A stretch of DNA of 64,000 nt from Vreelandella profundi (GTDB lineage Bacteria; Pseudomonadota; Gammaproteobacteria; Pseudomonadales; Halomonadaceae): positions 1,240,001 to 1,304,000 of the forward strand of contig NZ_CP077941.1 in NCBI RefSeq assembly GCF_019722725.1, in the 5' to 3' direction. Of this stretch, positions 6,027-43,751 are shown one piece after another. Made by a program: the position numbers and the translations under genes. How positions within the stretch are numbered: the first letter of the stretch is position 1; each line of letters begins with the position of its first letter. Below the pieces are notes generated by a model. The model was not told the origin of the DNA. It worked only from the letters and a program-made list of their open reading frames with translations, and searched no databases.

Positions 6027-6041
6027 GTTTAGACGAGAGGG

Positions 6042-9757: not shown

Positions 9758-9796
9758 ACAGCCTGGGGCGGTGAGAAATCGTCAACTGCACTTATG

Positions 9797-9808
9797 CCAT
9801 GATCATGG
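9797..9808. repeat. Perfect 12-base palindrome upstream of the zinc peptidase gene
   Basis: CCATGATCATGG lies in the 110-base gap between the APP1-like gene and the peptidase gene. It could be an operator half-site pair or mere chance; no known factor is recognised. Confidence 0.25.
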
Positions 9809-9867
9809 TAAAACAATCGGCCTGTTCACGGGCCTAGAGACAGCCCCTTCATCTGCGGTGAATTGCC

Positions 9868-10542: not shown

Positions 10543-10586
10543 GCCTAGCCGTGTTACCTGACAATATTTTATTGAAAATAGCGTGT

Positions 10587-10770
10587 CTAAAAGGGCTTAT
10601 TAGCCAAAATGAGCGCTCGACGCGGTGCCAGGCGCCAAAGCCTATTTGAGCTGCTGAAGATGTTCAAGCGGTGCGGGGCGGTGATAGAGCGCGCCCATAG
10701 AGAATGCCGTGTCGAAAAAGCCCAGATTCTTGGGTACATCTTCAATACCAACACTGATGGTCAGTGCTGC
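10587..10770 (-). pseudogene. Decayed fragment of cmoB (3'-terminal copy)
   Basis: Reading the reverse strand, this fragment encodes VGIEDVPKNLGFFDTAFSMG and then LYHRPAPLEHLQQLK, nearly identical to intact CmoB encoded at 17214-18224. A stop codon (TAG) follows, then ALAPG, then, out of frame after a deletion of about 90 codons, the exact CmoB C-terminal tail APRRALILANKPF and stop at 10587-10589. The deletion joint falls at a CCTG shared by both ends. Nucleotide differences throughout show it is an old or foreign copy, not a recent duplication. Similarity fades beyond about 10755-10800. Confidence 0.85.
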
Positions 10771-11155
10771 ATTATCTAGCAGGTACGCAACGTTTTTTTG
10801 CATGTCGCTAAAGCTACTGAGTGTGGTAAAGCGCCTATCAATAGCTATTTTAGGGATACTGCTGCATTAATTAGATCGGTATTCAAATAATTTATACCCC
10901 CCTTAAAAAAACCAATTTGTTGAGCCGCGCTCTTCTATGACATTTTGTAGTACTTATTATGTGCTTAACTATGTCAATAGGATTGGACGATGGACGCATG
11001 CCTGCCGATTAATACTGTTTGTTTGTTAAATGATCTAAAGTTTATGAGAGAGCTTTTGTCTTTTGCATAATCTCTTTGGCTAATAAATTTTTATTTATTA
11101 AATTATATTCAGAGTTTTTGAATGCTCTCTTCTCTATCTTTAGAGGAAGTTCGCG
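10771..11155. other. Non-coding AT-rich stretch before the PrpD-family gene
   Basis: No credible gene is seen. The first part (to about 10870) may hold further unrecognisable cmoB-derived sequence. From 10870 the sequence becomes AT-rich and presumably carries the promoter of the PrpD-family gene. That gene has GAGG (11143-11146) as its ribosome site. No clear -35/-10 pair was found. Confidence 0.4.
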
Positions 11156-12523
11156 ATGATGTTTTCAAGGGAATTATCAAAATTAATTATATCTTTATGT
11201 GATGAAGATCTTACATTAAGTGCTCTGGATAATGCGAAGACGGTTATATTGGATACATTAGGCTGCGCTTTAGCTGGTGCGAATGAGCCAGCCGTCGAAA
11301 TGTTAGTTACCACTCCTGGTATTGCTACGAAAGGAAACGTTAGGTTAATTGGCCGAACTGAACGATTAGATGTACTCAATGCGGCGCTGGTTAATGGCAC
11401 GGCGGCGCATGCTTTGGATTTTGACGATGTAAATACAGCCATGGGGGGGCATCCTTCCGCCCCTGTACTTTCTGCATTAATGGCTTGCTGCGAACTTGCA
11501 CCATATTCTGGAAGAGAGCTGCTGTTAGCATTTATAACGGGATTTGAAACAGAGACTCGTTTGGCGCGTGCGGTTAACTTTCATCACTATCAACTAGGAT
11601 GGCACCCTACCGCCACGCTGGGAGTATTTGGTGCTGCTGCTGCCTGCGCTAAGTTAATGAAACTGAATGAGGAGCAAGTAGCAACTTCGCTCGCATTTAG
11701 TGCAAGCCTAGCCAGTGGGTTGAAAGCTAATTTTGGCACTATGACAAAGCCCTTTCATGTGGGCCATGCCGCGCGTCATGGGCTAATGGCTACATTAATG
11801 GCACGCCAAGGATGGACCGCTAGCGCAGATGCATTCGAACACGAACAGGGGTTCTTTAATGTGTTTAATGGTAAAGGTAACTATAACTTTTATCGTGCGC
11901 TTGAAGAGTGGGCAGCTCCTCTAGACATAGTATCCCCTGGTATTGGCATCAAGCTTTATCCATGTTGTGATAGTACCCATACTAGTATCGATGCCGTAAG
12001 GCTTTTACACGCTGAGCATCAGTTCAATGAGGTTGATATTGAGCGAATTGAGGTAATGATCCATCCTCTTAGGTTAACCCATATCAATCGTCCTAATCTT
12101 CGTAGCGCAACAGATGCAAAGTTTAGTGTTCAGTACTGCATTGCATGCATGTTAATTGATAAAAAGATTGATTTTAATAGCTTTTCGCCTTTGGCATACG
12201 AAAACTCTAAGGTGCAGGCTTTAATGTCAAAAATTCAAGTGTTTCCACATCCCACCCCTGAACAATCTTCGGTTGGAAACTATCTAACGGATTTTCGTAT
12301 ACAAATGAAGGACGGTATTTGGCTCGAAAAACGAATGGAACAACCGCTAGGTCGACATATTGACGAGCCTGCTCCATTAGAGTTAATCCTAGAAAAATTT
12401 GAAAGCTGTGCTTCTTTGGTATTGAAGGCTAGTGCTGTAAAGAAACTCTCCAACGCGGTCATGAATATAGAGAATTTTTCGGATGCTTCTGAACTTGTAA
12501 AGCTCTCCTCGCTAGATACTTGA
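11156..12523 (+). CDS. MmgE/PrpD family protein (dehydratase or decarboxylase-like)
   Basis: A 455-residue member of the MmgE/PrpD superfamily, which includes 2-methylcitrate dehydratase and cis-aconitate decarboxylase. Family features seen are the N-terminal helical part with LDTLGCALAGA, the conserved NGTAAHALDFDD (about 81-92) and MGGHPSAPVL, then GWHPTATLGVFGAA and TKPFHVGHAARHG, which supply active-site His and Lys residues. The C-terminal lid domain begins near HINRPNLRSATDAKFS. The exact reaction cannot be told from sequence. Since a tripartite tricarboxylate transporter follows, a di- or tricarboxylic acid substrate is likely. The start could be either of two tandem ATGs (11156 or 11159). 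Codon use is AT-rich, unlike the core genes. Confidence 0.88.
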   Translation: MMFSRELSKLIISLCDEDLTLSALDNAKTVILDTLGCALAGANEPAVEMLVTTPGIATKGNVRLIGRTERLDVLNAALVNGTAAHALDFDDVNTAMGGHPSAPVLSALMACCELAPYSGRELLLAFITGFETETRLARAVNFHHYQLGWHPTATLGVFGAAAACAKLMKLNEEQVATSLAFSASLASGLKANFGTMTKPFHVGHAARHGLMATLMARQGWTASADAFEHEQGFFNVFNGKGNYNFYRALEEWAAPLDIVSPGIGIKLYPCCDSTHTSIDAVRLLHAEHQFNEVDIERIEVMIHPLRLTHINRPNLRSATDAKFSVQYCIACMLIDKKIDFNSFSPLAYENSKVQALMSKIQVFPHPTPEQSSVGNYLTDFRIQMKDGIWLEKRMEQPLGRHIDEPAPLELILEKFESCASLVLKASAVKKLSNAVMNIENFSDASELVKLSSLDT

Positions 12524-13520: not shown

Positions 13521-15029
13521 ATGTTTCATGCATTATGGGACGCATTGCCAGGTATTTTGGACTTAAGTAGTCTATTGGCAATTGCAGTGGGTGTTGTCGC
13601 CGGTATATTTCTTGGGGCTCTTCCTGGCCTTAGCGCTACACTAGGTATTTCTGTATTACTGCCTTTTACTTTTGGGTTAAGTCCCCAAGTTGCTTTAGGT
13701 ATGATGGCAGGGATTTATAATGGATCAATGTATGGTGGAGCTATTCCGGCTATTCTGCTTAATATTCCTGGGACGCCTTCTGCAGTAGCGACGACATTTG
13801 ATGGCTACCCGATGGCGCAGCAGGGGCGCGCAAATGAAGCTTTACGGGTTGCATTAGTTTCTTCCGCTATTGGTGGTATTGCCAGTGGCTTAGCGTTAAT
13901 GCTTTTAGCACCTCCACTAGGCAGTGCAACACTCATGTTTGGGCCTATTGAGATATTCTGGGTTTCAGTTTTTGGTATTTTGAGTATTGCGTTGTTAATT
14001 AAGGGAAATGCAATAAAAGGCCTCATTAGTGCAGGCATAGGCATTTTTGTGGCTACTGTTGGCATTGATCCCGTAAGTGCAAGTGAGCGTTTTACATTTG
14101 GTTCTATATATCTTGGTGATGGTATAAGTGTCATTGTACTTCTTATCGGTCTATACGCTCTTCCTCCAGTAATTGATACGCTAACTAATCCTTCATCTAA
14201 TAATAAACAACACCAAAATAACTATAGTGCTGGAGGTGTTGCATCTTTTATCTCAATGTTAAGATTTTGGAAAACTTGGATAAGATCTTCATTGATCGGT
14301 ATTGCAGTAGGTATTTTGCCAGGAGCAGGTGGATCATTTGGAACCTTCATTAGCTATAATGAAGCAAAACGCAACGCTCGTAATCCGGATGACTGGGGTA
14401 AGGGGGAACCAGAAGGCGTGGCTGCTGCAGAAACTTGCAACAATGCTGATACTGCTGCTTCAATGATTCCTGCGTTGACACTTGGTATACCTGGTACTTC
14501 GGTAGCCGCCGTTATGCTTGGTGGTTTTTTAATTCACGGTCTTCAGCCGGGTCCCAATTTGTTCCGAGAGCATCCAGATGCTGTTTTTGGCTTTATGTGG
14601 CAGTTCTTAATTGCCTCAGTAATGTTGATTTTTCTTGGTGGATCGGTAGCAACGAGAATTTTTTCGAAAGTTCTTTACTTGCCTAAGCAATTGCTCGCAA
14701 GCACCATTTTATCATTGATGGTTGTGGGGGCTTATTCTATTCATGAATCTATGTTCGATGTTTATTTAATGCTTGGTTTTGGCGTTATTGGATATATTCT
14801 TGATAAATTGAAATTCCCTATGGCTCCAGTAGTCCTTGGTGTTATTTTAGGTGGCTTTATGGAGTATAACTTTCGGCTATCTATGCTTATGAGTGGTAAT
14901 GATATTAGTGTCTTGTGGGGGTCTATAACATCTGTAGTTTTGATAGTATTAGTCGTCGGGCTAATAGCTTTAACTCTGCTGAAAGATAAGGTTTCGGCAA
15001 TGATCGGCAAAAAATACCAACCTAGGTGA
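13521..15029 (+). CDS. tctA: Tripartite tricarboxylate transporter, large permease TctA
   Basis: The 12-helix transport channel of the TTT system. At 502 residues it matches TctA family length. Diagnostic motifs are ALPGLSATLGISVLLPFTFG near residue 35, GSMYGGAIPAILLNIPGTPSA near 68-88 with the conserved GTPSA, and a second inverted copy with GILPGAGGSFGTFISYNEAK near 265 and TLGIPGTSVAAVMLGG near 320. The paired GIPGT/NIPGT motifs reflect the internal duplication and probably shape the substrate site. It lies between tctB and tctC (9-base gap), so the three are co-transcribed. Confidence 0.95.
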   Translation: MFHALWDALPGILDLSSLLAIAVGVVAGIFLGALPGLSATLGISVLLPFTFGLSPQVALGMMAGIYNGSMYGGAIPAILLNIPGTPSAVATTFDGYPMAQQGRANEALRVALVSSAIGGIASGLALMLLAPPLGSATLMFGPIEIFWVSVFGILSIALLIKGNAIKGLISAGIGIFVATVGIDPVSASERFTFGSIYLGDGISVIVLLIGLYALPPVIDTLTNPSSNNKQHQNNYSAGGVASFISMLRFWKTWIRSSLIGIAVGILPGAGGSFGTFISYNEAKRNARNPDDWGKGEPEGVAAAETCNNADTAASMIPALTLGIPGTSVAAVMLGGFLIHGLQPGPNLFREHPDAVFGFMWQFLIASVMLIFLGGSVATRIFSKVLYLPKQLLASTILSLMVVGAYSIHESMFDVYLMLGFGVIGYILDKLKFPMAPVVLGVILGGFMEYNFRLSMLMSGNDISVLWGSITSVVLIVLVVGLIALTLLKDKVSAMIGKKYQPR

Positions 15030-15038
15030 GGGCTTGAA

Positions 15039-15986
15039 ATGAATTACAATAAAACTTTATTAGCAACGATGTTTGCATTGTTAGCGCCAGTGGCAGCCCA
15101 GGCTGATTTTCCTCAAAAAAATATTACGATTGTTGTTGGATATGGTCCAGGAGGAGGGTCTGACATAACCGCACGCGTGGTTTCTCAGTATCTTGAGAAA
15201 TACCTAGATGGGAATGTCAGTGTTGTGGTGAGAAACGTTCAAGGTGCTGGCGGAGTCATTGCATTAACTCAAGTTTCTCGAGCCGAGCCTGATGGCTATA
15301 CCATCGGTGCATTTAATGTGCCTGCATCTAACGGTAGGATGAAAGATCGCTCTGTTTCATATGGACTGGATAGTTTTGATTTTCTGGCAGGTGTAGCATC
15401 AGACCCGAATACGTTAGTCGCATTGAAAGGAAGCGGTATAGAGACCCTTGATGAGCTAGCAGAAGCATGTGCTAGTGAAGAGCGTCTGACATTGGGTGTT
15501 GCTGGGTTCGGTGGTGAAGACCATTTTGCCGCCCGGCAAATTGAAGATAAACTAGGGTGTAGCTTCACCTATGTTCCGTTGGGTGGGGATGGCCCAGCTC
15601 GAACAGCCGTAATGGGGGGGCATGTTAACTTGGCCGTCGTGAATGTCAGCGCGGCTTATAATTACCAGGAGGCGCTCAGTTTCCTTGGTGTGATGGATCA
15701 ATCTCGTTCTCAATATGTAGAAGAAGTGCCAACTTTTATAGAGCAAGGTTATGATATTGAGATGGCTTCTACTCGAGGCTATGTGTTGCCTGCCGGAACA
15801 CCGCAGGAGATTGTAGAACAGTATCTTTCTGCATTTACAGAGATGTTTAATGATCCTCAGTTTATTCAGGATATGGGACGTGAGGCGGTGCCTGCGATTT
15901 ATTTCGATGCAGTGGAATGGACAACGTTAGCTGAAGCTCAGGATAAAATAGTCACAGAGCTTTGGGAAAACTCTCCATGGAAGTAG
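15039..15986 (+). CDS. tctC: Tripartite tricarboxylate transporter, periplasmic binding protein TctC (Bug family)
   Basis: A 315-residue extracytoplasmic solute receptor. A signal peptide (MNYNKTLLATMFALLAPVAAQA) precedes FPQKNITIVVGYGPGGGSDI, where the GPGGGSD turn is the Bug-family loop that contacts the ligand carboxylate through water. The second loop region reads VNVSAAYN. Bug proteins bind mono- to tricarboxylates and other small acids; the ligand here is unknown. It is encoded 9 bases after tctA. The partner PrpD-like enzyme upstream and LysR downstream suggest one inducible catabolic unit. Confidence 0.93.
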   Translation: MNYNKTLLATMFALLAPVAAQADFPQKNITIVVGYGPGGGSDITARVVSQYLEKYLDGNVSVVVRNVQGAGGVIALTQVSRAEPDGYTIGAFNVPASNGRMKDRSVSYGLDSFDFLAGVASDPNTLVALKGSGIETLDELAEACASEERLTLGVAGFGGEDHFAARQIEDKLGCSFTYVPLGGDGPARTAVMGGHVNLAVVNVSAAYNYQEALSFLGVMDQSRSQYVEEVPTFIEQGYDIEMASTRGYVLPAGTPQEIVEQYLSAFTEMFNDPQFIQDMGREAVPAIYFDAVEWTTLAEAQDKIVTELWENSPWK

Positions 15987-33162: not shown

Positions 33163-35196
33163 TTATTTAGGCAGTGCGTAGACCGCGACTTGATCGCCGA
33201 CCTGATCCTTGAGAATGGAGTTGCCGCCGGCGATAAAGGCAACGTATTGACGGCCTTCATATTCGTAGACGGCAGGAATGGACACCGACGGTGCCTGTGC
33301 TTGGTCAGACCACAGCTCTTCACCCGTTTCCAGAGAGTAGGCACGCACCTTGGCATCCATCGACGCGCCGATGAAGATAATACCGCCAGCCGTTATTGCC
33401 GGGCCGCCAATCGTAGGTGAGCCCCAGCTCTCTGGCATGAAGAAACCATACTGTTGCGTTACACCCACTGGCCGGCGCCATTTGACGTCGCCGGTGGTCA
33501 TATCCAGCGCCACAAGCTCACCGAAAGGCGGTTCCCAGCAAGGCATGCCAAGCCAGTTACGAGCTACCTCAAGACGCATGCCGTAGGGCGCGCCTTCCTG
33601 GGGTGAAAAACCACTCTCGTTGCCTGAACCGCTATCCGCTTTATCGTAATCTTCCCGGCTGTAAAGTTTCACGTATTGCACGATGTGAGACGTGTTGACC
33701 ACCGCAATCTGGTTCTCAGGGTCAAAGGCAACGCCTCCCCACTGAACGCCGCCGGAGCTGTCTGGGTAGGTGAGTGCCCCTTCGCCTTGCGTGGTTGGCG
33801 GGGTGTACATGCCTTCATACCAAAGATCTTCCCACAGCGCCGAACATTGGCCAAAGCTAACCGCGTCGGCAAGTGCCCATATCTTAGGCTTCTCTGACTG
33901 GTCTAGCAGCGGTGCGGGCTTGGTTGGGAAGGGTTGAGTAGGGGCGTAAACCTCGCCTTCAACCGAGCCATCGCCGCCTGGCACCGGACGTTCCTCAATA
34001 GGCCAAACGTCTTCGCCGGTTTCACGGTTTACGACGAACAGGAAGCCCATTTTGGTTGCCTGGATCAGAGCCGGAATCTCTTCGCCGTCCACGGTAATAT
34101 CCATCAGCGTGGGGGCGGAGTTAATATCGTAATCCCAGATGTCGTGATGCACCCATTGACGCGACCACACTACCTCACCGGTTTCGATGTCGAGTGCCGT
34201 CGTCGACGTCGCTAGTGGAGCACTCTCAGTGCGATTGCCGCCCCAGTAATTGGGTGAAGGCGAAGAGACGGGCAGATAGACCAAACCAAGCTCTTCGTCC
34301 GCGGACATGTGCGTCCAGATGTTTGCTGTGCCGCTTTGCTCACGCACTTCTTCGGGCAGTACCTCAAACGTCCACTCACGCTCGCCGGTACGCGCGTTGA
34401 TCGAGAACACGTTGCCTGGAGGCGCCTGCTCAAATGCCCAGTCTTTACCTGCCCAGCCGAGTATCAGATGATCACCGACCACGGTCGGCGGCTGAAGCAG
34501 CGAAAGCGGCCACTCAGCGTTGGTGTTATTCCACTGGTTGACATCCAGTACGCCATTGTCGGCAAAGCTTGCACACGGCTCGCCGCTATCGGCATCGACT
34601 GCGAACAGCTGCGCATCCATGGTGCCCAGGTAGACTATTTTCTGACAGGCTTCGCCAGCGTCAGGTTCAGCGGCCTCCCAGTAAGCAACGCCACGGTTTT
34701 TTAAGGCCGGCTGGGTCAAGGCCTCGAGCGTGGACTGCGTATCAAAGCTCCACTTTTCTTCGCCAGTGCCAGGGTCAAGCGCCAGAATGCGGTAGAAGGG
34801 CGTACCGATATAGAGCGTATCGTTGGCGAATACCGGCGTTGCGGACCAGACGGTCGGCGGCAGATCACCGTGGCCATCTGACACATCGCCGGTATGCACT
34901 TCCCAGACCTTCTCTAGGTCACCCACGTTGTCGGCATTAATTTGCTCAAGCGGGCTGTACTTTTGTGCATTGAGCTGGCCGTGAAAGCTATCCCAGGTCG
35001 GCTCGCCGGGTACTAGTGGAATCGGGGCAGCGTTAGTCTGTGGACCTTGTTCCTGGGAGCCGGTCTTCTGCGGGCTTGGCTGATCTTGTGCCAGCAGCGT
35101 GATCGGCGTTAGACAAGCGGCCAGAGCGGTGGCTGTGCCCAGCACCGATGTAACAGATCTAAAGCGAGGATGGGTAGCAGGTAAAAAAGTTGGCAT
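33163..35196 (-). CDS. PQQ-dependent dehydrogenase, membrane glucose-dehydrogenase type, lacking its own membrane domain
   Basis: A periplasmic quinoprotein that oxidises a sugar or polyol and passes electrons to ubiquinone. 677 residues from the ATG at 35196 (AGGAG 8 bases before). A signal-like N-terminus is followed by WDSFHGQLNAQKYSPLEQIN, the start of the eight-bladed beta propeller; blade repeats with the tryptophan-docking motif recur (for example GTGEEKWSF, TGEREWTFE, TGDVKWRR, TGEELWS). HHD-x-WDYD (350-357) and Lys382 match the PQQ and catalytic Asp/Lys region of E. coli Gcd. Gcd has an N-terminal five-helix anchor that is missing here but seems to be the preceding gene. Substrate could be glucose, quinate or another polyol. 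PQQ synthesis genes are not in the window. Confidence 0.88.
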   Translation of the reverse strand: MPTFLPATHPRFRSVTSVLGTATALAACLTPITLLAQDQPSPQKTGSQEQGPQTNAAPIPLVPGEPTWDSFHGQLNAQKYSPLEQINADNVGDLEKVWEVHTGDVSDGHGDLPPTVWSATPVFANDTLYIGTPFYRILALDPGTGEEKWSFDTQSTLEALTQPALKNRGVAYWEAAEPDAGEACQKIVYLGTMDAQLFAVDADSGEPCASFADNGVLDVNQWNNTNAEWPLSLLQPPTVVGDHLILGWAGKDWAFEQAPPGNVFSINARTGEREWTFEVLPEEVREQSGTANIWTHMSADEELGLVYLPVSSPSPNYWGGNRTESAPLATSTTALDIETGEVVWSRQWVHHDIWDYDINSAPTLMDITVDGEEIPALIQATKMGFLFVVNRETGEDVWPIEERPVPGGDGSVEGEVYAPTQPFPTKPAPLLDQSEKPKIWALADAVSFGQCSALWEDLWYEGMYTPPTTQGEGALTYPDSSGGVQWGGVAFDPENQIAVVNTSHIVQYVKLYSREDYDKADSGSGNESGFSPQEGAPYGMRLEVARNWLGMPCWEPPFGELVALDMTTGDVKWRRPVGVTQQYGFFMPESWGSPTIGGPAITAGGIIFIGASMDAKVRAYSLETGEELWSDQAQAPSVSIPAVYEYEGRQYVAFIAGGNSILKDQVGDQVAVYALPK

Positions 35197-35206
35197 GGAC
35201 GGCTCC

Positions 35207-35572
35207 TCAGAAGTGGGCGGGGCGGGCGTGGGATGATGGGCGGGCGATATCAATAATAAGGCCAATCAGGCCGACCACCATTGCCGCGTCGATCCACCTC
35301 TGGTGCAGCAGTAATCCAGCGAAAAAAGTACCGGCAATGCCAATCAGAATCAGCAACCGTAATGCGATAGTGGCGCCGCGCCCCGTGACCAGCATAAGAA
35401 GTAGCGCCATGACTGCCAGGGCAAAACAGGCCGCGCCGGCAACGAGCGCGCCGAGCGTGCCGGTGACCCCGGTCAGCGGCGTGAAATAGGCATAGAGGGC
35501 GATGGCGAGCCCGACGAGCGAAGCTATCAACAGCACGATAGCGCCCATTTTAGCCCTGAGTGGTTGCGACAT
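35207..35572 (-). CDS. Small membrane protein resembling the membrane domain of quinoprotein glucose dehydrogenase
   Basis: 121 residues from the ATG at 35572 with four or five hydrophobic helices, including one with TGRGATIALRLLILIGIAG. It ends 10 bases before the PQQ dehydrogenase start and is clearly in the same operon. In E. coli Gcd the first 150 residues form five helices that bind ubiquinone, so this gene probably supplies that part as a separate chain. Similarity was judged from topology and context only. TGGAGA about 10 bases upstream is the ribosome site. Confidence 0.7.
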   Translation of the reverse strand: MSQPLRAKMGAIVLLIASLVGLAIALYAYFTPLTGVTGTLGALVAGAACFALAVMALLLMLVTGRGATIALRLLILIGIAGTFFAGLLLHQRWIDAAMVVGLIGLIIDIARPSSHARPAHF

Positions 35573-35756: not shown

Positions 35757-36899
35757 ATGCGTATCTTTTTTACAATGCTGGCACTAGCGACCATGTTGGC
35801 GGGTGGTCTATCGGCGCTGGCCTCGAGTGAAGCCTTTGAGCCACGACTAGTGCGGCTTGAGGTGCAGCGCGCACTCCCCAGTATTGAAGCGTCACTGGCT
35901 CAAGAGTCCGCGGATATCAACGCCGTTTTTCTTCATTACGCCAACGACCAGGCGCTTTGGATGAGCGCCCATTTAGCCATCTTGCGTTATGGCGATACCG
36001 CCCGTGTTACGTTACTGGAGTATGCCGCACTGCCTGAGTTTCAGCAGCTGCTCGTGCGTTTTGGCCCCGATGCCATACTGCCGATTATCTACTATCGCGA
36101 TAATGATATCGCCACGCTGCGTGCTCAGGCTTGGGTGGGTGAGCACTACCAGCAGCTGAGCCGCTGGTGGAATGAGGACGCTGAGCAGGCGCAGCGCCAA
36201 GGCGAGGCAACAGAAGTATCCGAGTGGAGCCCATATCGGCGAGGCCAAATAGGCATTGCCTTACTGGACGCTGAAGGGCATGGCTTGCTCAATCAGTTTG
36301 TGGTGGATAGCGCGGGCGATGTGCATTGGCTCCAAGGTGAGCGTGTCGTCGCAGGACTCAGCGATTTCTTTACCAGCGGTCTTCGTAATCTGGAAAATCA
36401 ATGGCGCCGCGACGAAGCGATTGGTACCGCGGACGTGGGTTGGGCGGGTGTCGATCTTTTATTGATGGCCAGCACCGTTAAAGTGCTGCGGGTGGGGCGT
36501 TTTGCGAGAGGCGCACGGCTAGGCAGTGTTGAGGCCCAGGGAGCGCGCACTGGATTACGCTCAGGCATAGCGGCAGGCGGCGGGCGGTTTGCCAGTCTGC
36601 CACGTATGGCCAAAGTGGCAGCAGTTGCTGGCACTGCTTATGTGGTGGTTCGCCACCCGTCGCTGGTAAGCGCACTGGGCGCCAATGTAGCTAAATGGTT
36701 CAGCTTGCCAATATGGCTGGGGCAGTTCGCACTCTGGCTGCTGGTGCTGCTGCCGGTTCTTCTGATGGTGCGCTTTGTTTGGCGCTGGGTACTGCTACCT
36801 GTTTTATGGCTTCTACTGCCGCTTATTCGTCGTTTTGACAGGTTAGCTCGCAAACCTTATCAAACAGCGCGACTGAGCCCATTTGGCCGCCCTTCATAA
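35757..36899 (+). CDS. Unknown protein with signal peptide and C-terminal membrane helices
   Basis: A 380-residue protein that I do not recognise. It starts with a signal peptide or anchor (MRIFFTMLALATMLAGGLSALAS). The middle (25-230) is soluble and mixed alpha/beta, with QFVVDSAGDVHWLQGERV. A segment near 230-310 is rich in Arg, Gly and Ala (for example RFARGARLGSVEAQGARTGL). Two or three strong hydrophobic helices follow near 310-365, and the tail is basic. Its last 77 bases overlap antisense to the end of the kinase gene on the other strand. No homologous domain could be named, and the neighbours do not suggest a role. Confidence 0.7.
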   Translation: MRIFFTMLALATMLAGGLSALASSEAFEPRLVRLEVQRALPSIEASLAQESADINAVFLHYANDQALWMSAHLAILRYGDTARVTLLEYAALPEFQQLLVRFGPDAILPIIYYRDNDIATLRAQAWVGEHYQQLSRWWNEDAEQAQRQGEATEVSEWSPYRRGQIGIALLDAEGHGLLNQFVVDSAGDVHWLQGERVVAGLSDFFTSGLRNLENQWRRDEAIGTADVGWAGVDLLLMASTVKVLRVGRFARGARLGSVEAQGARTGLRSGIAAGGGRFASLPRMAKVAAVAGTAYVVVRHPSLVSALGANVAKWFSLPIWLGQFALWLLVLLPVLLMVRFVWRWVLLPVLWLLLPLIRRFDRLARKPYQTARLSPFGRPS

Positions 36900-38034
36900 T
36901 GACTGGGAGGCGGTGGCCATTGGCAAAGTTTGCCGCACAAACGGGGACGCCCGCTTCCAATGGGCCGATATAGTCGATGCTCTGTGGCTGTAAATGATGG
37001 ATCGCCAGGCTAGACGTATCCCCACCGGCGATCAGCAGAGTGCCGATGTTGCCGGAACGAACCAGCTTTGCAATCAGCGCTGCAGCATACTGAGCGACCT
37101 CTAGCGCGGTTAGCCCATGCGTCGTATCGTCATCCAGCACCGCAAGCGTTGCTTTACCGTCTTGCAGCGGTGCCGTTATTTGCGCATAGAGTTCTTGCGG
37201 TTGGCTGGCGAGCTGGCGTGCCGATACCGTCACGATTGTCATGCTATGAGAAGCCGCAACCTGGGCAGCGGTGACAGAAGACCGGCTGCCCGCAAACACA
37301 AGCAGCGGGCCGGGTAGGCTGCTAGGCATCTCGATCGTCTGATGATTGGGATAAAGCGCTTCTGCAACGCTGCTGGCACCCACCCACAGCTGGGGCGCAG
37401 GGGCATGACGAAACCGCTCGCCAATGCGTGTTAAATCACTAGCGTCAAGCGCATCGCATAGCACCGGCGCGTTGGGCAGGGCTACATCAGTGTGCAGCGC
37501 GACCCTATCTAAGCCGTGAACGTTGGTAAGACCCATATCGCTAAAGTGGCGGCGTAGGTCGGCTTCCTGCATGGGCGTGACGGGGTGGCGATGCATCACT
37601 GGGTGGCGGTCGATGCGATATACCTGGCCATCAGCGCCCTTGGCAAACAAATTGCCAAATAGGCAGTAGCGACCCAGGCTTGGCTGGCCCCCTACGATCA
37701 GCGTGGTGGCTGGCTTTAGCTGAGTAGACAGCGCGTCCATAGCTATCGCAATATTGCCGGTGTGGACGCTGCTATCAAAGGTAGAGCACACCTTTAAATG
37801 CACAACGTCGGGCGCGTGCACCTGTAATTGATGACCTATACGCTGCATTTCTGAGCGAATCGCCTGCTGATCCATACTGCGTGCCGCGGTGGCTATCCCA
37901 AAGGCATCCAGATCGGCCACTTCATCGCAAGAAGGAACCGTCAGGTAGAGCCGGGCGTTTAAGCCGGCGCGGCGTAGGGTTGCCAACGTATCTGAAGCGC
38001 CGGTGAAGTCATCCGCGACAAATATATAGCGCAT
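36823..38034 (-). CDS. DUF1537 sugar-acid kinase (four-carbon acid sugar kinase / 3-oxo-isoapionate kinase family)
   Basis: A 403-residue ATP-dependent kinase of the DUF1537 (SLI) family. The N-terminal domain starts MRYIFVADDFTGASDTLATL, where the DDFTGA motif binds the acid-sugar substrate. The C-terminal nucleotide domain has LLIAGGDTSSLAIHHL, IGPLEAGVPVC and LPVIMKGGQMGS, the ATP-binding loops. Family members phosphorylate D-threonate, D-erythronate or 3-oxo-isoapionate. The RuBisCO-like gene lies 2 bases upstream, which favours a 3-oxo acid-sugar kinase (OiaK-like) over a threonate kinase, since threonate kinases pair with PdxA2-type dehydrogenases. Start ATG at 38034; the stop is antisense to the unknown membrane protein. 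Confidence 0.85.
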   Translation of the reverse strand: MRYIFVADDFTGASDTLATLRRAGLNARLYLTVPSCDEVADLDAFGIATAARSMDQQAIRSEMQRIGHQLQVHAPDVVHLKVCSTFDSSVHTGNIAIAMDALSTQLKPATTLIVGGQPSLGRYCLFGNLFAKGADGQVYRIDRHPVMHRHPVTPMQEADLRRHFSDMGLTNVHGLDRVALHTDVALPNAPVLCDALDASDLTRIGERFRHAPAPQLWVGASSVAEALYPNHQTIEMPSSLPGPLLVFAGSRSSVTAAQVAASHSMTIVTVSARQLASQPQELYAQITAPLQDGKATLAVLDDDTTHGLTALEVAQYAAALIAKLVRSGNIGTLLIAGGDTSSLAIHHLQPQSIDYIGPLEAGVPVCAANFANGHRLPVIMKGGQMGSVALFDKVCELTCQNDE

Positions 38035-38036
38035 GC

Positions 38037-39284
38037 TTAACGTCCGCCGTAGAAGTCGAGAGCCTTGGCAAGCGCCGGGCGGTTGGAGCACTCCAGCGGC
38101 GTACCGGCTTCAATGCTTTGCCAGGCTTCCTGAAGGCTGGCAACCCCCGCGGCGACACCGTCTGGATGCGCAAGAATGCCGCCGCCAGCCAGGAACATGA
38201 AGTCAGCGCTTTGGGTTTTCTCGAGCGTCAGCGGCAGGGTGCCGGCCCATTGCCCGGAGGAAAATACCGGCATCACGCGATCATCCGTAGCACTTAGCGC
38301 CGTGAGCGAAAGCTTGGCCGCATTGGCCACTTCTTCGGTCAGGTCAGCAAATTTTCCACCCATGCCGTGCACGTGCATATGGTCGATGCCGGCTAAGCGG
38401 TACAGCGTTTGATAGGCGGAAAAATCAATACCTAGCGCCGGGTGGCGTGCGAAGGCGCCAAAACCGTTACGGTGGCCGTGAATGGCCAGTGGCGTAGAGG
38501 CGCGCAGGCTTTGCATTGCAGACAGCCCGCACCAGTTTAGGCTCGCCATCACGCAGCTGCCCCCCTCGGCCTGGACATGGTCGGCGTGACTGCGCATGGC
38601 ATCCAGTTCATCGGTGATATTAAACGCGATCATAACGTCGCGACCACTGCGTTCTCTAAACTTTCTAACGCGTTCCATCACGGCGCTGACGCGCTCTTTA
38701 ACCGGCGCGTAAGGGTGATTGCCCGCAATTTCATCATCTTTAATGAAATCGACGCCGGCTTCGCAAAGCTGTTCGACTAAATCGGCCGTTTCCGCCGGAG
38801 TCATACCAATATTAGGCTTTAAAATAGTGCCAAAAAGCGGACGTTTACTAACGCCGGTCACCGCACGGGTGCCCGAAACGCCGTGAGCGGGTAGCGCATA
38901 GCGATCTCGATATTCGGGGCGCAGGTGCAGGTCCATCAAGCGCAGCCCGGTGAGCTCGCCTAAATCGAAAAGGTTACCGGCCACGGTAGCGGCAAGGTTC
39001 GGTAGGTTCACCCCGACGTTGTCTTCCGGGTACTCAATCTCTACCGCCACTTTTTTCCAAGGGCCTTTAATTTCTTTACGTTCCAGGTAGGCGCTGCGCA
39101 GGCTGGGTGAGTCCAGCTCCTCCAATACTTCTAAATGCGTCACTCGGGCGCCAAATCGATCTCTGATTGCTTGGGTCTCGCCTTGTACTTTGACGAACGT
39201 GCCTGAGCTTTGCTCACCGGCCATCATTTCTGCTACAAGCGATGGATCTAACGGCGTTTCTATCTGATAAGCAGCGCGAATCAT
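38037..39284 (-). CDS. RuBisCO-like protein (type IV large-chain family)
   Basis: A 415-residue RuBisCO large-chain homologue. The C-terminal barrel keeps K156 (LKPN, spinach K175), K182-D184-E185 (KDDE, the carbamylated lysine and metal ligands K201/D203/E204), H271-R272 (H294/R295), H302 and H304 (H325/H327) and K311 (K334). The second lysine of the KPK motif (K177) is Asn158. This suggests an enolate-forming enzyme that still uses Mg2+ and a carbamyl-lysine but not ribulose bisphosphate carboxylation. RuBisCO-like enzymes with this kinase partner act on 3-oxo-isoapionate 4-phosphate (decarboxylase or transcarboxylase/hydrolase). It overlaps the upstream VOC gene as ATGA and is 2 bases from the kinase. 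Confidence 0.9.
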   Translation of the reverse strand: MIRAAYQIETPLDPSLVAEMMAGEQSSGTFVKVQGETQAIRDRFGARVTHLEVLEELDSPSLRSAYLERKEIKGPWKKVAVEIEYPEDNVGVNLPNLAATVAGNLFDLGELTGLRLMDLHLRPEYRDRYALPAHGVSGTRAVTGVSKRPLFGTILKPNIGMTPAETADLVEQLCEAGVDFIKDDEIAGNHPYAPVKERVSAVMERVRKFRERSGRDVMIAFNITDELDAMRSHADHVQAEGGSCVMASLNWCGLSAMQSLRASTPLAIHGHRNGFGAFARHPALGIDFSAYQTLYRLAGIDHMHVHGMGGKFADLTEEVANAAKLSLTALSATDDRVMPVFSSGQWAGTLPLTLEKTQSADFMFLAGGGILAHPDGVAAGVASLQEAWQSIEAGTPLECSNRPALAKALDFYGGR

Positions 39285-39826
39285 GCTTCTGCCTCACTTA
39301 GATTCGGGAAGGGGCGCACCGGATCACTGCCGTCCCAGTTCTCTGATGCTTCGCGAATCATGCGAAACATTTTGCCTTTTGGGCCAAGCACTTCAGAAAG
39401 CTCAATCACGGTGCCGGGGTGGTATTCGCGATCAAAATAAGCAAAGCGTCCGTTGGTGCCTACCTCACCGCTCATTTTGACGTGATAGCCACGTGCCTGC
39501 ATGTTAGCCAGATCGGTATCGTAGTCTTCAGTCCAGAAGGCGACATGCTGCAGCCCCGTGTTACCCGCTTGCATAAAGTCACGGTACATCGAGGGGGCAT
39601 CATTGCGGGTTTGAATCAGCTCAACCTGAATGAAGCCAGAGTTAGCCAAGGCCACCGAGTTGTGCACATCGTACTGCTTACCGTCATAGGTGTAGTTCTC
39701 AATCGGCACCCGCGGGTTGTAGAAAAAAGGCCCCACGCCCATCACATCGGTCCAGTACTTCATGGCCGCTTCGATATCGTTGACCACATAACCTAACTGA
39801 CGAATAGCTCCAAGATATTGGCTCAT
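39281..39826 (-). CDS. VOC-fold (glyoxalase-like) metalloprotein
   Basis: A 181-residue vicinal oxygen chelate protein with two beta-alpha-beta-beta-beta halves. The first begins IRQLGYVVNDIEAAMKYW and has FIQVELIQ; the second has GLQHVAFWTEDYDTD and TVIELSEVLG. Putative metal ligands are Q10, E in VELIQ, H in LQHVAF and E in VIELSE, a Gln/Glu/His/Glu set as in epimerases or glyoxalases of this fold. The role in the operon is unknown: isomerase, epimerase or C-C cleavage of the sugar-acid intermediate are possible. It starts 8 bases after the dctM stop, and its end overlaps the RuBisCO-like gene. Confidence 0.85.
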   Translation of the reverse strand: MSQYLGAIRQLGYVVNDIEAAMKYWTDVMGVGPFFYNPRVPIENYTYDGKQYDVHNSVALANSGFIQVELIQTRNDAPSMYRDFMQAGNTGLQHVAFWTEDYDTDLANMQARGYHVKMSGEVGTNGRFAYFDREYHPGTVIELSEVLGPKGKMFRMIREASENWDGSDPVRPFPNLSEAEA

Positions 39827-39834
39827 GACATTTC

Positions 39835-41109
39835 CTACATGACAAGGTTAGGCAGCCAAGTGGACAGAGCGGGTATTAGAGTAACCGCTGCCAGGGCTGC
39901 AAAAAGAGAAAGATAGAAAGGGGCGACGCCGCGGATAATTGACGATAACGGCATCTTGGTAATGATCGATACCATATAGAGACTCATGCCCACCGGCGGT
40001 GTTAGCAGCCCCAGCATTAGATTGAGTACGAACACGACGCCGAGCTGCTCAGCAGGCACGCCTGCCTGTAACAGAGCGGGCGCGACAATCGGGGCGATAA
40101 TCAGTATTGCCACGATCGCTTCTAGAAACATGCCCACCACTAGCAAAAGTACGTTCAGCAGTAACAGCAGCACCAAGGGGTTGTCCGACACGCTTAGCAA
40201 CCACTCGCCTGCATGGGCAGGCACACGGTCCATTGTGAGTACCCAGGCAAATAAGGCAGCGGACGCGACAACAAACAGTACGTTGGCGGTCGACAGCACG
40301 GTTTCTCTCGTGCAGCTCAGGAAGGATCGCCACGTTAGCGAACGATAAATGGCCAGGCCAATGAGAATGGCATAGGCGGTCGTCATTCCAGCCGCCTCAG
40401 TGGGGCCAAAAAAACCGCTGATCATGCCGCCCACTAGAAGTACAGGGGCGAGTAGGGCAGGCAACGAGATCAGCGTCTTTTTACGAAAGGCTTTGAAGCT
40501 TGGCTGGGCATCGTCGCGTGGCAGCTTATAGTGCCTTGCCATCACGGCGACTTGGACCATCAGCGCAATCGCTACGACGAGCGCAGGAACGACCCCCGCC
40601 AGCAGCGCACGGATGGTGGAAACTTCCGCGGCGGTGGCGAAGATGATAAGCGGAATAGACGGTGGAAAGATCGGCCCGATAGTGGCGGCGGCAATCGTCA
40701 GCCCAGCAGCAAATCGCTTGGTGTAACCCTGTTGCTCCATCTGACGAATTTGAATGCCACCCAATGCGCCGATGTCAGCGAGTGCCGCGCCGGACATGCC
40801 TGAAAAGATCAGGCTGGTGAGTACATTAACGTGCGCCATGCCCCCGCGAATGCGGCCCACCACCATGCGCATTAATTCAAATAGGTGGGTGGTGACTCCC
40901 GTCGCACCTAGCAGAGACGCTGCCAGTATAAACAGCGGTACCGCCAGCAAGGGCGTGCTGTCCAGGGTGTTAATAGCCCGCTGGGCCATAACAGTGAACG
41001 GCAGATCGTAGAGAAAGATCACCAGTCCAGCCGATAAGCCCAAGCTAACAGCAACCGGCGCACCAATCAGTAGGCTGGCTGCAAAGAAGAGCAATAACGT
41101 TAGGGACAT
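39835..41109 (-). CDS. dctM: TRAP transporter large permease subunit (DctM family)
   Basis: Large membrane subunit of a TRAP transporter that imports acids with Na+. 424 residues from the ATG at 41109 with GGAGGG just upstream; the open frame extends further upstream but that part is polar. Family motifs include FSGMSGAALADIGALG near 105-120, AATIGPIFPPSIPLIIF near 140 with the conserved PPS, FFGPTEAAGMTTAYA and GLLTPPVGMSLYM near the end. About twelve helices. The start overlaps the dctQ end by 10 bases. Confidence 0.93.
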   Translation of the reverse strand: MSLTLLLFFAASLLIGAPVAVSLGLSAGLVIFLYDLPFTVMAQRAINTLDSTPLLAVPLFILAASLLGATGVTTHLFELMRMVVGRIRGGMAHVNVLTSLIFSGMSGAALADIGALGGIQIRQMEQQGYTKRFAAGLTIAAATIGPIFPPSIPLIIFATAAEVSTIRALLAGVVPALVVAIALMVQVAVMARHYKLPRDDAQPSFKAFRKKTLISLPALLAPVLLVGGMISGFFGPTEAAGMTTAYAILIGLAIYRSLTWRSFLSCTRETVLSTANVLFVVASAALFAWVLTMDRVPAHAGEWLLSVSDNPLVLLLLLNVLLLVVGMFLEAIVAILIIAPIVAPALLQAGVPAEQLGVVFVLNLMLGLLTPPVGMSLYMVSIITKMPLSSIIRGVAPFYLSLFAALAAVTLIPALSTWLPNLVM

Positions 41110-41600
41110 ACTAAAGCCCTCCGGCGCATTATCCGTCCTAGACGATAGAGTGATATAAGCGCGAGTAATCCGATGCTGATAAGTGCCGGCATGTATAGCC
41201 ACAGATTAGGGATGCCAAGTGCCGGTGAAGAAAAGCGTGCTGCTCTGAGTAGAAAGCGATAAAAGCCGTAAAGCGTCAGCACACAAAAGCCGAGCGTTGC
41301 CAGTTCTGCAATGGCTAAACACAGCGTGCGCTTAATACCGGATAGCGCATCGGCTAGCATGGTTACTGCCACATGTTGGCCATGAAACAGTAAGTAGGGC
41401 GTCGCCAGATAGACCATCGCAATGCCGGCAAACCGGGAGGCTTCATCCGCCCATGGCAGGCCAACGCTGAAAAAGTTTCGGGCCAGCACCTGCGAGACGA
41501 CTAATGCGGTAATAACAATCAGCAGCAGCATCGCAATACCAACACAAACTTCAGACAGCCGACTAAGACTGCGCCCTAGCAGGGATTCATGACCGTTCAT
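41100..41600 (-). CDS. dctQ: TRAP transporter small permease subunit (DctQ family)
   Basis: A 166-residue subunit with four membrane helices and the DctQ signature NFFSVGLPWADEASRF near residues 42-57, whose acidic pair and Trp-Ala-Asp/Glu motif help bind the large permease. Other segments include YLATPYLLFHGQHVAV. It starts 3 bases after dctP and overlaps dctM by 10 bases. Confidence 0.92.
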   Translation of the reverse strand: MNGHESLLGRSLSRLSEVCVGIAMLLLIVITALVVSQVLARNFFSVGLPWADEASRFAGIAMVYLATPYLLFHGQHVAVTMLADALSGIKRTLCLAIAELATLGFCVLTLYGFYRFLLRAARFSSPALGIPNLWLYMPALISIGLLALISLYRLGRIMRRRALVCP

Positions 41601-41603
41601 GGC

Positions 41604-42608
41604 TTAACGCGTTTCGCTGATGAGTTGATAAAGATCGCCGTACTGATCGTCGAATTCTTCGGCAATTCTTGCTTGGACGCGGGTACGGAAAGCATCAACG
41701 TCGAGCCCTTCGTCAGGACCGATAATCTGCATGCCCGACTCCCTAAGCTGAGCAAGATCACTCGCTTCCGCTTCCAGCATGGCCGTTGTGGCACGTTCAC
41801 GTACTTCTAACGCGGCTTCAGCAATCGCGGCTTGGTTCTCAGGAGATAGTGACTGCCAGGTGTCATCGTTAATCACTATGACCTGGGCGGCACTGATGTG
41901 GCCGGTCAGCATTAAGTGACTTTGTACTTCATTCAATTTTGCAGTCACCACCACGTTGACCGGGTTTTCCTGCCCTTCAACCACACCGGTTGCCAATGCC
42001 GTTGGCACTTCTGACCAATCAACGGGAACAGGAATAGCGCCCATTCCTTCAACGGTCGCCATGTAAATAGGGAAAGGGATCGAACGGATCTTGACACCTT
42101 CTAGATCTTCCGGAGTGTGGATTTCCTGATTGGCCGTTAGGTGGCGAGTGCCGAAGTAGAACGCATACAGCAAGCGTACGCCTGACGCATCGGCTAACTC
42201 TTCGTTCAGTGTGCTCATGACCGGAGAGTCAACGTCCATCACGGCCATGAGGTGGTCAACGTCGCGATAAAGATACGGCGTGTCAAAGGCTGCAAAGGGG
42301 GCATAAAGTGAGCCAATGGCGCCCGCAGTGTTGTGGGAAAGCGCGATGGACCCGGTCGAGACGGCCTCAGCAAGTTCTTGCAAGCGGCCAAGCTGTGAGT
42401 TGGGATATATCTCAACGGCCACGTCGCCATTGGTTTTTTCTTCAATCGCTTCAGCCAGCCATTCAGCCTGCATGCCGGCAATTGAGTTAGGCGTATGCAT
42501 ATGACCATAGCGAAGCGTGACTTCCTGCGCAGCCACACTGCCTGCGCTCAGTGCGACAGTGCCTGCAATTAACGCGAGATGGCTATTACGGAATAGTTTA
42601 ACTAGCAT
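41604..42608 (-). CDS. dctP: TRAP transporter periplasmic substrate-binding protein (DctP family)
   Basis: First gene of the operon, a 334-residue extracytoplasmic receptor. A signal peptide (cleavage near VAAQEVTL) precedes a two-domain binding fold. The ligand-contacting region has LEGVKIRSIPFPIYMATVEGMGA (Arg that grips a carboxylate, near residue 176) and TGVVEGQENPVNVVV near 207-221, both classical DctP motifs. The ligand cannot be read from the sequence; members of this family bind sugar acids, including aldonates and apionate-like acids. ATG at 42608 with GGAG 8 bases before. Divergent to the LacI-type gene. Confidence 0.93.
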   Translation of the reverse strand: MLVKLFRNSHLALIAGTVALSAGSVAAQEVTLRYGHMHTPNSIAGMQAEWLAEAIEEKTNGDVAVEIYPNSQLGRLQELAEAVSTGSIALSHNTAGAIGSLYAPFAAFDTPYLYRDVDHLMAVMDVDSPVMSTLNEELADASGVRLLYAFYFGTRHLTANQEIHTPEDLEGVKIRSIPFPIYMATVEGMGAIPVPVDWSEVPTALATGVVEGQENPVNVVVTAKLNEVQSHLMLTGHISAAQVIVINDDTWQSLSPENQAAIAEAALEVRERATTAMLEAEASDLAQLRESGMQIIGPDEGLDVDAFRTRVQARIAEEFDDQYGDLYQLISETR

Positions 42609-42719
42609 TGTTGTTCTCCAGACTATGATTGTTTTTTATTGTTTTGTAGCCAAGTGACTTCCACCTGCTACGAGCTAATAGGCTAGGGCAGGGCTGCTCC
42701 TTTAGGCAATGAGGAATTC
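42609..42719. promoter_or_regulatory. Shared divergent promoter region of the TRAP/RuBisCO-like operon and its LacI-type regulator
   Basis: The 111-base gap between dctP and the regulator gene must hold both promoters and the operator. An inverted repeat GTAGC (42646-42650) with GCTAC (42667-42671) is a candidate binding site. TTGTTTT occurs twice nearby. No complete LacI-family consensus palindrome is obvious. Confidence 0.4.
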
Positions 42720-43751
42720 ATGATGGTTTTTGATGTAAAGCGACCGTTAATACCTGATATCGCAGCCGCCGCCGGCGTGTCGACAGCAACCGTTGACCGT
42801 GTGCTCAATCGACGCCCCGGCGTGCGTAAAGTCACGCTTCATCGCGTGCTGGAAGCCGCGGTAAAAGTGGGCTACCTAGGTGAAGATGAAGTCAAAATGC
42901 GCCTTGGGCCGATCTTTTCCAAGGTTGTTTTTCTATTGCCGCAGGGAACCAATCCTTATTTAACGGGGCTGAATTCTTATGTGCGGGCCTTGGCGGAACA
43001 GTCAATGGAGCCGCTTAAAGTGCGCAGTCACTTTATTGAAAGCTTCAATCCGGAGGCGTTAGTTCGCGCACTTCGGCGCTATGGAAAAACCTCAGATACC
43101 GTCATTTTCATGGCTATAGAGCATCCAAAAGTGCGCCAAGTGATTGATGAGCTGATTATGGCGGGCAAGCGGGTCATTACGATTATTTCAGACCTGCCCA
43201 CGTCGAACCGGCATGCCTATATTGGTATCGATAACTTCGCCGCAGGGCGAACGGCGGCGAAAGTCATGGGCGGCTTTTGTCATGTGCCAGCAGGGAAGTT
43301 GGCCCTCGTGGCTGCCAGCCGTGCCTATCGCGCCCATATGGAGAGGGAAATGGGGTTCTTGGCATTGGCCGAGGAGAGTTTTCCGCATCTTACGGTGATT
43401 GGCCCCCATGAGGGGCACGACAACCGAGATGAGAACTATCACAACACCTGTCGCTTGTTGGAACAGCATCCTGATCTCGTCGGTATCTACAACGTGGGCG
43501 GCTCGTCCGATGGCATTGGCCGCGCACTGCGTGAATCAAAGCGCGACAAAGAGATATGCTTCATCGGCCATGGGCTAACCCCCGATACCCGGGGCATGTT
43601 AATCGAAGGCGTGATGGATATGGTGATCACCCAGAGCCCACATAGCATCTATGCACAGGCCATTGAGATAGCCAGCGGCGAGAAGAAAGAGCCCGCCCCG
43701 ACGACAATGGCGATCTATTTTGCAGAAAATCTTCCCGCTGTGAGTGGGTAG
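42720..43751 (+). CDS. LacI-family transcriptional regulator with sugar-type sensor domain
   Basis: A 343-residue regulator. The N-terminal LacI helix-turn-helix reads PDIAAAAGVSTATVDRVLNRRPGV (about 12-34) with the hinge helix after TLHRVLEAAVKVGY. The rest is a periplasmic-binding-protein fold with VVFLLPQGTNPYL, VITIISDLPTSN, YIGIDNFAAGRTAAKVMGGF and GIYNVGGSSDGIGRAL, like ribose/xylitol-type effectors. Divergent from the TRAP/RuBisCO-like operon, it is the likely repressor of that operon, induced by the imported acid sugar or an intermediate. Starts at ATG 42720 or 42723; GAGG lies upstream. Confidence 0.9.
   Translation: MMVFDVKRPLIPDIAAAAGVSTATVDRVLNRRPGVRKVTLHRVLEAAVKVGYLGEDEVKMRLGPIFSKVVFLLPQGTNPYLTGLNSYVRALAEQSMEPLKVRSHFIESFNPEALVRALRRYGKTSDTVIFMAIEHPKVRQVIDELIMAGKRVITIISDLPTSNRHAYIGIDNFAAGRTAAKVMGGFCHVPAGKLALVAASRAYRAHMEREMGFLALAEESFPHLTVIGPHEGHDNRDENYHNTCRLLEQHPDLVGIYNVGGSSDGIGRALRESKRDKEICFIGHGLTPDTRGMLIEGVMDMVITQSPHSIYAQAIEIASGEKKEPAPTTMAIYFAENLPAVSG

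Follow-up and report, generated by a model that had tools for sequence, protein, structure and literature searches.

A conserved operon joining a VOC-fold protein to a RuBisCO-like protein and a DUF1537 kinase in Vreelandella profundi, with a proposed role in branched acid-sugar catabolism

Operon content and layout

The window analysed here, 64,000 bases long (bases 1240001-1304000 of the single-contig genome of Vreelandella profundi, 3,643,760 bases), carries an operon in which the gene for a protein of the vicinal oxygen chelate (VOC) fold lies between the genes of a TRAP transporter and those of a RuBisCO-like protein (RLP) and a DUF1537-family kinase, with a LacI-type regulator encoded divergently. 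This operon is a discrete, widely shared and conserved system, a variant of the RLP/DUF1537 acid-sugar pathways that has the VOC enzyme as its mark and that is not described in the open-access literature searched. With modest confidence, it is read here as a self-contained catabolic operon for a branched acid sugar, separate from the D-apionate route though akin to it. This reading draws on the gene content and its conservation, the separate clade and catalytic residues of the RLP, the fold and ligand-type residues of the VOC protein, the independence of the operon from the D-apionate enzyme ApnO, and the swaps of modules around the VOC gene.

The six genes dctP-dctQ-dctM-VOC-RLP-kinase run head-to-tail on the minus strand (36823-42608), and lacI is divergent at 42720-43751 (+). 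As given in a preliminary description made from the sequence alone, all seven genes are present, with open reading frames, and after correction of two starts the six packed genes are separated by gaps or overlaps of 2-10 bases. The kinase start was moved to the ATG at 38034 (a longer GTG reading from 38091 would overlap the RLP gene) and that of DctM to the ATG at 41109. There are gaps of 3 bp between DctP and DctQ, 8 bp between DctM and VOC and 2 bp between RLP and kinase, and overlaps of 10 bp between DctQ and DctM and 4 bp between VOC and RLP. The features are:

42720..43751, plus strand: LacI-type regulator with LacI helix-turn-helix and periplasmic-binding domains (PF00356/PF13407)
42609..42719, no strand: lacI-dctP intergenic control region of 111 bp, no CG-centred palindrome by simple search
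41604..42608, minus strand: DctP, TRAP solute-binding protein (TIGR00787, 199 bits, cut-off 175)
41100..41600, minus strand: DctQ, TRAP small permease (PF04290, 81 bits)
39835..41109, minus strand: DctM, TRAP large permease (TIGR00786, 368 bits, cut-off 268)
39281..39826, minus strand: VOC-fold protein, proposed metal-dependent ketol isomerase (PF13669 above cut-off; fold matches)
38037..39284, minus strand: RLP, proposed C-C cleaving enzyme on a phosphorylated 3-oxo acid (PF00016, 203 bits; PF02788)
36823..38034, minus strand: DUF1537-family acid-sugar kinase (PF07005 and PF17042)

Conservation of the VOC-RLP linkage

The linkage between both genes was followed in order-wide samples of 249 Hyphomicrobiales and 250 Burkholderiales genomes (499 in all), each including a centre genome (G207 and G201, respectively) picked for having the VOC-RLP pair. 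Burkholderiales matches were listed at E-values below 1e-60 (RLP) and 1e-40 (VOC). The tallies of other RLPs exclude a fragment of 163 residues (G323) and every match at or below 31% identity. In Hyphomicrobiales, an RLP with at least 58% identity to the focal one was found in 10 genomes, with VOC adjacent in all 10, and RLPs of 37-53% identity lay at 53 places among the matches listed, with VOC adjacent at a single one (G414). In Burkholderiales, six genomes had an RLP of at least 57% identity, five of them with VOC adjacent, and none of 16 other RLP places had it. For both orders together, VOC was adjacent at 15/16 focal-type RLP places versus 1/69 at 37-53% identity among the matches listed (Fisher P = 1.4e-14, a value not corrected for kinship among genomes); by count, the figures without the two centre genomes are 13/14 and 1/67 among those matches.

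The same boundary was found in other surveys. An RLP match was present in 47 of 201 Halomonadaceae genomes, and in the 30 loci fetched from this family VOC lay within 1.5 kb of every RLP of at least 66% identity (16/16, focal included) and of none at 50% or less (0/14). Among the best 60 of 365 plasmid RLP records, all 18 at 54% identity or more had an adjoining VOC of at least 64%, and two further records, in one of which the VOC match was partial, had such a VOC but no RLP at that level. VOC, LacI and kinase genes were detected in 79 of the best 80 named loci, a set chosen with an alignment of VOC-linked RLPs and thus not an even sample; the LacI homologue was divergent in these 79. The focal-type system spans alpha-, beta- and gammaproteobacteria, and 84 pattern matches to possible viral copies yielded none that could be confirmed. 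Lack of conservation of this neighbourhood had been named in the preliminary description as an argument against the proposed unit; instead, the VOC-RLP-kinase association proved to be highly conserved.

The RLP forms a clade of its own

The closest PDB sequence to the focal RLP is 3nwr (558 bits over residues 2-415), its closest solved relative, whose listed molecule name gives no function. Named relatives at 76-84% identity come from Halomonas, Billgrantia and Vreelandella, and members of the clade are mostly labelled as RuBisCO large subunit. With the OiaX equivalog model the focal RLP scored 379 bits, under the cut-off of 700 that was exceeded by the RLPs of loci L200 and L204 (780 and 772 bits), and with the methionine-salvage model MtnW (TIGR03332) 131.8 bits, under the cut-off of 513.6. 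Assignment to OiaX or MtnW was rejected on these scores, and the membership in methionine salvage that had been seen beforehand as fatal to the proposal was not found.

In a quick tree of 111 rows with many open forks, 62 VOC-linked RLP rows form their own group (support 94), with the ApnO-linked rows and OiaX outside. The comparison proposed in the preliminary description was obtained for OiaX, from which the focal RLP is separate, and for OiaT only through the ApnO-linked clade, probably the OiaT clade, as the tree held no characterised OiaT sequence; 20 of the 34 rows of that clade have an ApnO label within reach. Two changes suffice to place the VOC label on this tree, the main group of 62 and G414, the only VOC-linked RLP inside the ApnO clade.

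Positions E24, T29, N104, K156, K182, D184, E185, H271, R272, H304, K311, S342 and the GGG loop are kept in all 62 VOC-clade rows, and the same positions in 32/32 ApnO-clade rows. From its sequence, the focal RLP is assigned to form IV (RLP), with the carbamate and metal residues of RuBisCO retained. At position 158, which corresponds to RuBisCO K177, the VOC clade has N, the ApnO clade S and five RuBisCO rows K. The signature of the VOC clade is N158, H306, W346 and T349, versus S158, N306, T/S346 and Q349 in the ApnO clade, and loop 6 reads HVHGxGGKF in the former and HVNGxxNKF in the latter. The G414 protein carries the ApnO-type letters despite its position behind a VOC gene.

A third type of RLP operon was observed in Halomonadaceae (L222, 8085-11884 and 4187-5140; L223, 3771-13518). 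It contains an RLP, a TRAP transporter, a DUF1537 kinase, an epimerase/dehydratase-like short-chain dehydrogenase/reductase and a divergent LacI (the last two read by eye), with neither ApnO nor VOC, and seven such RLP rows form a clade of their own in the quick tree.

The VOC protein and the kinase

The VOC fold is indicated by PF13669, above its cut-off, and by a structure model and fold matches that agree with it. The Gln/Glu/His/Glu ligand set noticed in the preliminary description corresponds to Q10, E69, H94 and E142, invariant in 50 of 50 aligned sequences, and these residues probably bind a metal. The set equals that of human glyoxalase I. The focal VOC protein shares fold and ligand set with the branch of glyoxalase I and methylmalonyl-CoA epimerase (MCE), but it scored below the MCE cut-off (TIGR03081, 28.3 bits, cut-off 114.95), and its substrate would be a free acid sugar, not a thioester.

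The focal kinase scored 177 bits with the OiaK model (cut-off 700) and 136 bits with that of 3-oxo-tetronate kinase (NF043035, cut-off 350). As the kinases in the two clusters whose OiaX exceeds its cut-off reached only 455 and 476 bits on the OiaK model, the cut-off of 700 is too strict to decide.

Independence from ApnO

Carter et al. are said to have described in 2018 the catabolism of D-apionate and D-apiose with ApnO, OiaK, OiaX and OiaT. The D-apionate system combines an RLP, a DUF1537 kinase and an importer as the focal operon does, with the same RLP catalytic residues. In contrast, the focal operon has a VOC protein for ApnO, a LacI regulator, an RLP of a separate clade (about 44-52% identical to ApnO-linked RLPs of D-apionate-type operons), and an RLP and a kinase under the OiaX and OiaK cut-offs.

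A second RLP is encoded in the same genome at about 2.70 Mb (locus L003, C1:2690500-2710400, positions 4761-12073), in the order GntR-type regulator, 279-residue NAD-binding enzyme, DctP, DctQ, DctM, RLP and OiaK-like DUF1537 kinase. The 279-residue enzyme matches PDB 5t57, an ApnO structure, with 434 bits and is labelled ApnO here. Homologues of it in the clusters of the two RLPs above the OiaX cut-off, about 8 kb from the RLP gene in L200 and adjoining the kinase gene in L204, support this name. By its gene content, L003 is apparently a D-apionate cassette separate from the VOC operon. A cluster with ApnO, OiaK and OiaX is also given for strain LCG007, together with growth on D-apiose, in an excerpt of PMC11747546. 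In P. graminis (L201), ApnO, RLP and kinase genes adjoin apionolactonase-like and apiose dehydrogenase-like genes, as judged from their first residues only.

The absence of ApnO from the focal operon, pointed out in the preliminary description, was borne out, as the only strong homologue in the genome (C1:2696194-2697030) lies outside the window, beside the second RLP. When 20 named genomes were searched, with ApnO homologues counted at E-values below 1e-90, the VOC-RLP pair was found in 19, and 14 of these 19, mostly draft genomes, were without ApnO (two of the 14 with weak partial matches). In each of the five genomes with ApnO, the cluster or region that holds it also encodes a second RLP (39-51% identity), so that both systems occur together in six genomes, the present one included. 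As ApnO is missing from 14/19 and elsewhere tied to a different RLP, it does not serve the focal operon. Of the two explanations offered earlier, the variant apionate route completed by genes elsewhere is not supported in that wording, and completion by an ApnO encoded elsewhere was rejected. The other, import of another acid sugar that passes through a VOC step not described for these pathways, is supported.

Importer, regulator and other partners of the VOC gene

DctP, DctQ and DctM homologues are all present, as expected for a TRAP transporter. The DctP structure model is of low confidence (pLDDT 67). The closest solved sequences to DctP are 4p9k, 4pdh, 4nq8 and 4pc9 (148-151 bits), the first three of which we take to be binders of erythronate or pantoate. 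Two TRAP types occur in VOC-RLP loci, DctPQM and DctP with a fused DctQM. Seven of the 80 named loci have no DctP homologue, L105 included, and five of the other six contain amino-acid-type ABC importer genes (a binding protein in L077), while the sixth, L120, gave no clear reading. The LacI-VOC-RLP-kinase core is constant while the importer changes; therefore, the VOC protein belongs to the pathway and not to the transporter, and a role as transporter accessory was rejected. A simple scan for LacI operators revealed no shared CG-centred palindrome and none in the 111 bp intergenic stretch. Importer and regulator are ordinary; the first step is the unusual one.

Strong matches to 4oan (405 and 448 bits) were obtained with TRAP binding proteins of type B from VOC operons; the ligand of 4oan is presumably 2-acetolactate, with a skeleton close to 3-oxo-isoapionate. 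Deduction of the substrate from this match was rejected and the match kept as weak support, because in a quick DctP tree with many open forks 4oan falls among paralogues that are not part of VOC operons (86% to L211), three of which sit near acyl-CoA synthetase-like genes in sequence read by eye. No paper naming 4OAN was found in the open-access literature; binding of 2-acetolactate by some TRAP protein is mentioned in an excerpt of a review (PMC5812351).

In the Hyphomicrobiales sample, a VOC protein of at least 55% identity was present in 19 genomes, eight of which had no RLP beside it. A PdxA homologue was detected in the fetched locus of seven of these eight, and six of the seven loci also held an OiaK-like kinase, a DeoR-type regulator and a class I aldolase, which in the seventh (G339) lie at another place than the VOC-PdxA locus. 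The eighth genome (G426) has LacI-TRAP-VOC alone, with ApnO-RLP-kinase elsewhere. In Azospirillum thermophilum the PdxA module adjoins LacI-TRAP-VOC, and in G414 this set stands with the ApnO-clade RLP and an OiaK-like kinase (551 bits), with no ApnO in the 18 kb read. The module was delimited at three loci:

L189 4452-8678, L183 9523-13766 and L041 477-4721: PdxA, OiaK-like kinase, DeoR-type regulator and ADH-synthase/LsrF-like aldolase

Two kinases of PdxA modules scored 474 and 479 bits on the OiaK model, and three ApnO-cluster kinases 455-476. The aldolase belongs to the ADH-synthase/LsrF family, with 191 and 133 bits (under the cut-offs of 241 and 297) and MJ0400 and LsrF as nearest PDB sequences. 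The PdxA module replaces RLP and kinase beside VOC and is perhaps a second route for the same acid. With the LsrF and PdxA2 routes it shares a PdxA homologue and an LsrF/ADH-synthase-like aldolase; in contrast, the surveyed RLP loci had no PdxA homologue within 1.5 kb of the RLP, a search that did not take in the wider flanks of the 80 named loci. In L190, an isopropylmalate/tartrate-dehydrogenase-like gene (14427-15536) and another TRAP lie beside a solitary LacI-TRAP-VOC set.

Proposed pathway and substrate

We infer the substrate and every reaction of the operon as follows. Under LacI-controlled induction, the TRAP transporter would import a branched acid sugar. The VOC enzyme, in the place of ApnO, would need no redox cofactor: a 1,2-shift by way of a metal-bound enediolate would give a 2-hydroxy-3-oxo acid with a tertiary C2, of the 3-oxo-isoapionate type. 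The DUF1537 kinase would phosphorylate the CH2OH adjoining the ketone, and the RLP would split the resulting beta-keto acid phosphate, either through decarboxylation or through OiaT-like transcarboxylation/hydrolysis, into products that would enter central metabolism with no further operon gene needed. All parts agree with a single class of intermediate, which a VOC protein bearing ligands of the glyoxalase type could produce with no redox step. 3-Oxo-isoapionate 4-phosphate is such a 2-hydroxy-3-oxo acid with tertiary C2, its phosphate next to the ketone. It is the substrate of two characterised RLPs of this branch, according to an excerpt of PMC6302742. The downstream chemistry is likely shared with the apionate route.

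A tentative candidate for the substrate, doubtful in itself although all the enzymes could accommodate it, is aceric acid. Together with apiose, it is a constituent of rhamnogalacturonan II (PMC6353982, in excerpt). The proposal starts from the PdxA module. PdxA oxidises a secondary hydroxyl beta to a carboxylate, and the product decarboxylates; the phosphate handled by the module would therefore need such a hydroxyl. With a CHOH-CH3 side arm, the PdxA product would equal the LsrF substrate, and the natural acid known to us with this skeleton is aceric acid (3-C-carboxy-5-deoxy-L-xylose), a branched acid of this pectin. The VOC enzyme would then be an aldose-ketose isomerase yielding HOCH2-CO-C(OH)(COOH)-CHOH-CH3, the kinase would form the 1-phosphate, and the RLP, by OiaT-type transcarboxylation/hydrolysis, would release lactate and 3-phosphoglycerate; with these products, the lack of further genes in the operon would be accounted for. 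PdxA of the alternative module would act on this phosphate too, by oxidation and decarboxylation, and form 3-hydroxy-5-phosphonooxypentane-2,4-dione. The latter is the known substrate of LsrF, and the LsrF-like aldolase would split it into dihydroxyacetone phosphate (DHAP) and acetyl-CoA. This chain is deduced from the chemistry of the families and from the genes present. Among the titles and abstract openings listed from the open-access literature, neither a VOC-RLP-kinase operon nor aceric acid catabolism was found. If aceric acid were the substrate, the VOC protein as a sugar-acid isomerase and the RLP as a RuBisCO relative that releases lactate would, to our knowledge, each be without precedent.

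In a Neorhizobium plasmid (L040, 5159-5965), a short-chain dehydrogenase gene heads the VOC-RLP operon and perhaps feeds in a reduced form of the substrate.

Alternative explanations

Several observations weigh against a distinct branched-acid pathway marked by VOC. G520 has a focal-type RLP without VOC, on a contig of 3,025 bases with no VOC in the 1.7 kb upstream, and L105 holds only an RLP and an OiaK-like kinase; the uneven choice of the 80 named loci adds to this. RLPs of 37-53% identity are commoner in genomes with VOC (9/14 versus 36/235, P = 1e-4), a co-occurrence that agrees with a common plant source but may also stem from large catabolic genomes. By its sequence, the focal kinase appears remote from OiaK. 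The fold matches of VOC include dioxygenases with Z-scores similar to those of epimerases, and the modelled fold by itself is also compatible with an epimerase or a dioxygenase. VOC relatives of 49-53% identity stand in other settings (six read, at least two more listed), so that the wider family has other uses. Finally, the wide marine and soil range of the system may point to a commoner acid.

It is unlikely that the operon degrades 3-oxo-isoapionate or its alpha-ketol isomer 2-oxo-apionate, with VOC performing only the hydroxymethyl shift of ApnO and the RLP as a divergent OiaT giving 3-phosphoglycerate and glycolate. VOC does stand in the place of ApnO, it lies beside an ApnO-clade RLP and an OiaK-like kinase in G414 and with TRAP alone in G426, which has ApnO-RLP-kinase elsewhere, and the JGI labels two relatives of the RLP (P0022 and P0036, 63% identity) as OiaT. 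The six genomes with both systems could be taken in its favour, but two complete systems for a single acid would duplicate each other within a genome; moreover, the N158/H306/W346/T349 signature differs from the ApnO clade, and a C5 substrate would offer PdxA no secondary beta-hydroxyl to oxidise in the alternative module. VOC could instead be an epimerase that, like methylmalonyl-CoA epimerase, salvages one stereoisomer of the 3-oxo acid and is no committed step. This reading is allowed by the fold and quite improbable given the near-absolute VOC-RLP linkage, the MCE score of 28 of 115 bits and a tertiary C2 that carries no proton to move.

Still less probable is a linear C4 route, in which VOC would isomerise 2-oxo- to 3-oxo-tetronate as an analogue of OtnI, the kinase would be OtnK-like and the RLP would decarboxylate 3-oxo-tetronate 4-phosphate to DHAP. 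The isomerase, DUF1537 kinase and decarboxylase logic is that of OtnI-OtnK-OtnC, the kinase reached 136 of 350 bits with 3-oxo-tetronate kinase, and the presumed erythronate or pantoate binders are the nearest solved relatives of DctP. However, the focal operon has VOC for the TIM-barrel isomerase and an RLP for the decarboxylase, and its kinase falls short of the OtnK cut-off, with a better score on the OiaK model (177 bits). The LsrF-like aldolase of the alternative module would be superfluous if DHAP were already the product, and the RLP relatives of known reaction act on a branched acid in the excerpt of PMC6302742.

RLPs show the re-use of RuBisCO chemistry, and few have a known reaction. 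The focal RLP stands for a clade that is large, has sharp limits and comes with a first enzyme of its own. Identification of the VOC step would assign functions to this clade and its kinases together. It would also provide a counterpart of ApnO that works without redox, and may close a gap in what is known of the microbial use of odd branched pectin sugars.

Neighbouring genes

An ORF of 380 codons (35757-36899, +) is convergent with the kinase gene and overlaps its 3' end by 77 bp; it matched no Pfam or NCBIfam model, and homologues lie near the operon in L044 and L048. A large ORF at 33163-35265 (-) of the window resembles, in a reading by eye, a PQQ (pyrroloquinoline quinone)-dependent dehydrogenase. 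Of 89 operon loci checked, with up to 9 kb of flanking sequence, only L048 had a homologue of it, and this ORF is probably not part of the operon system.

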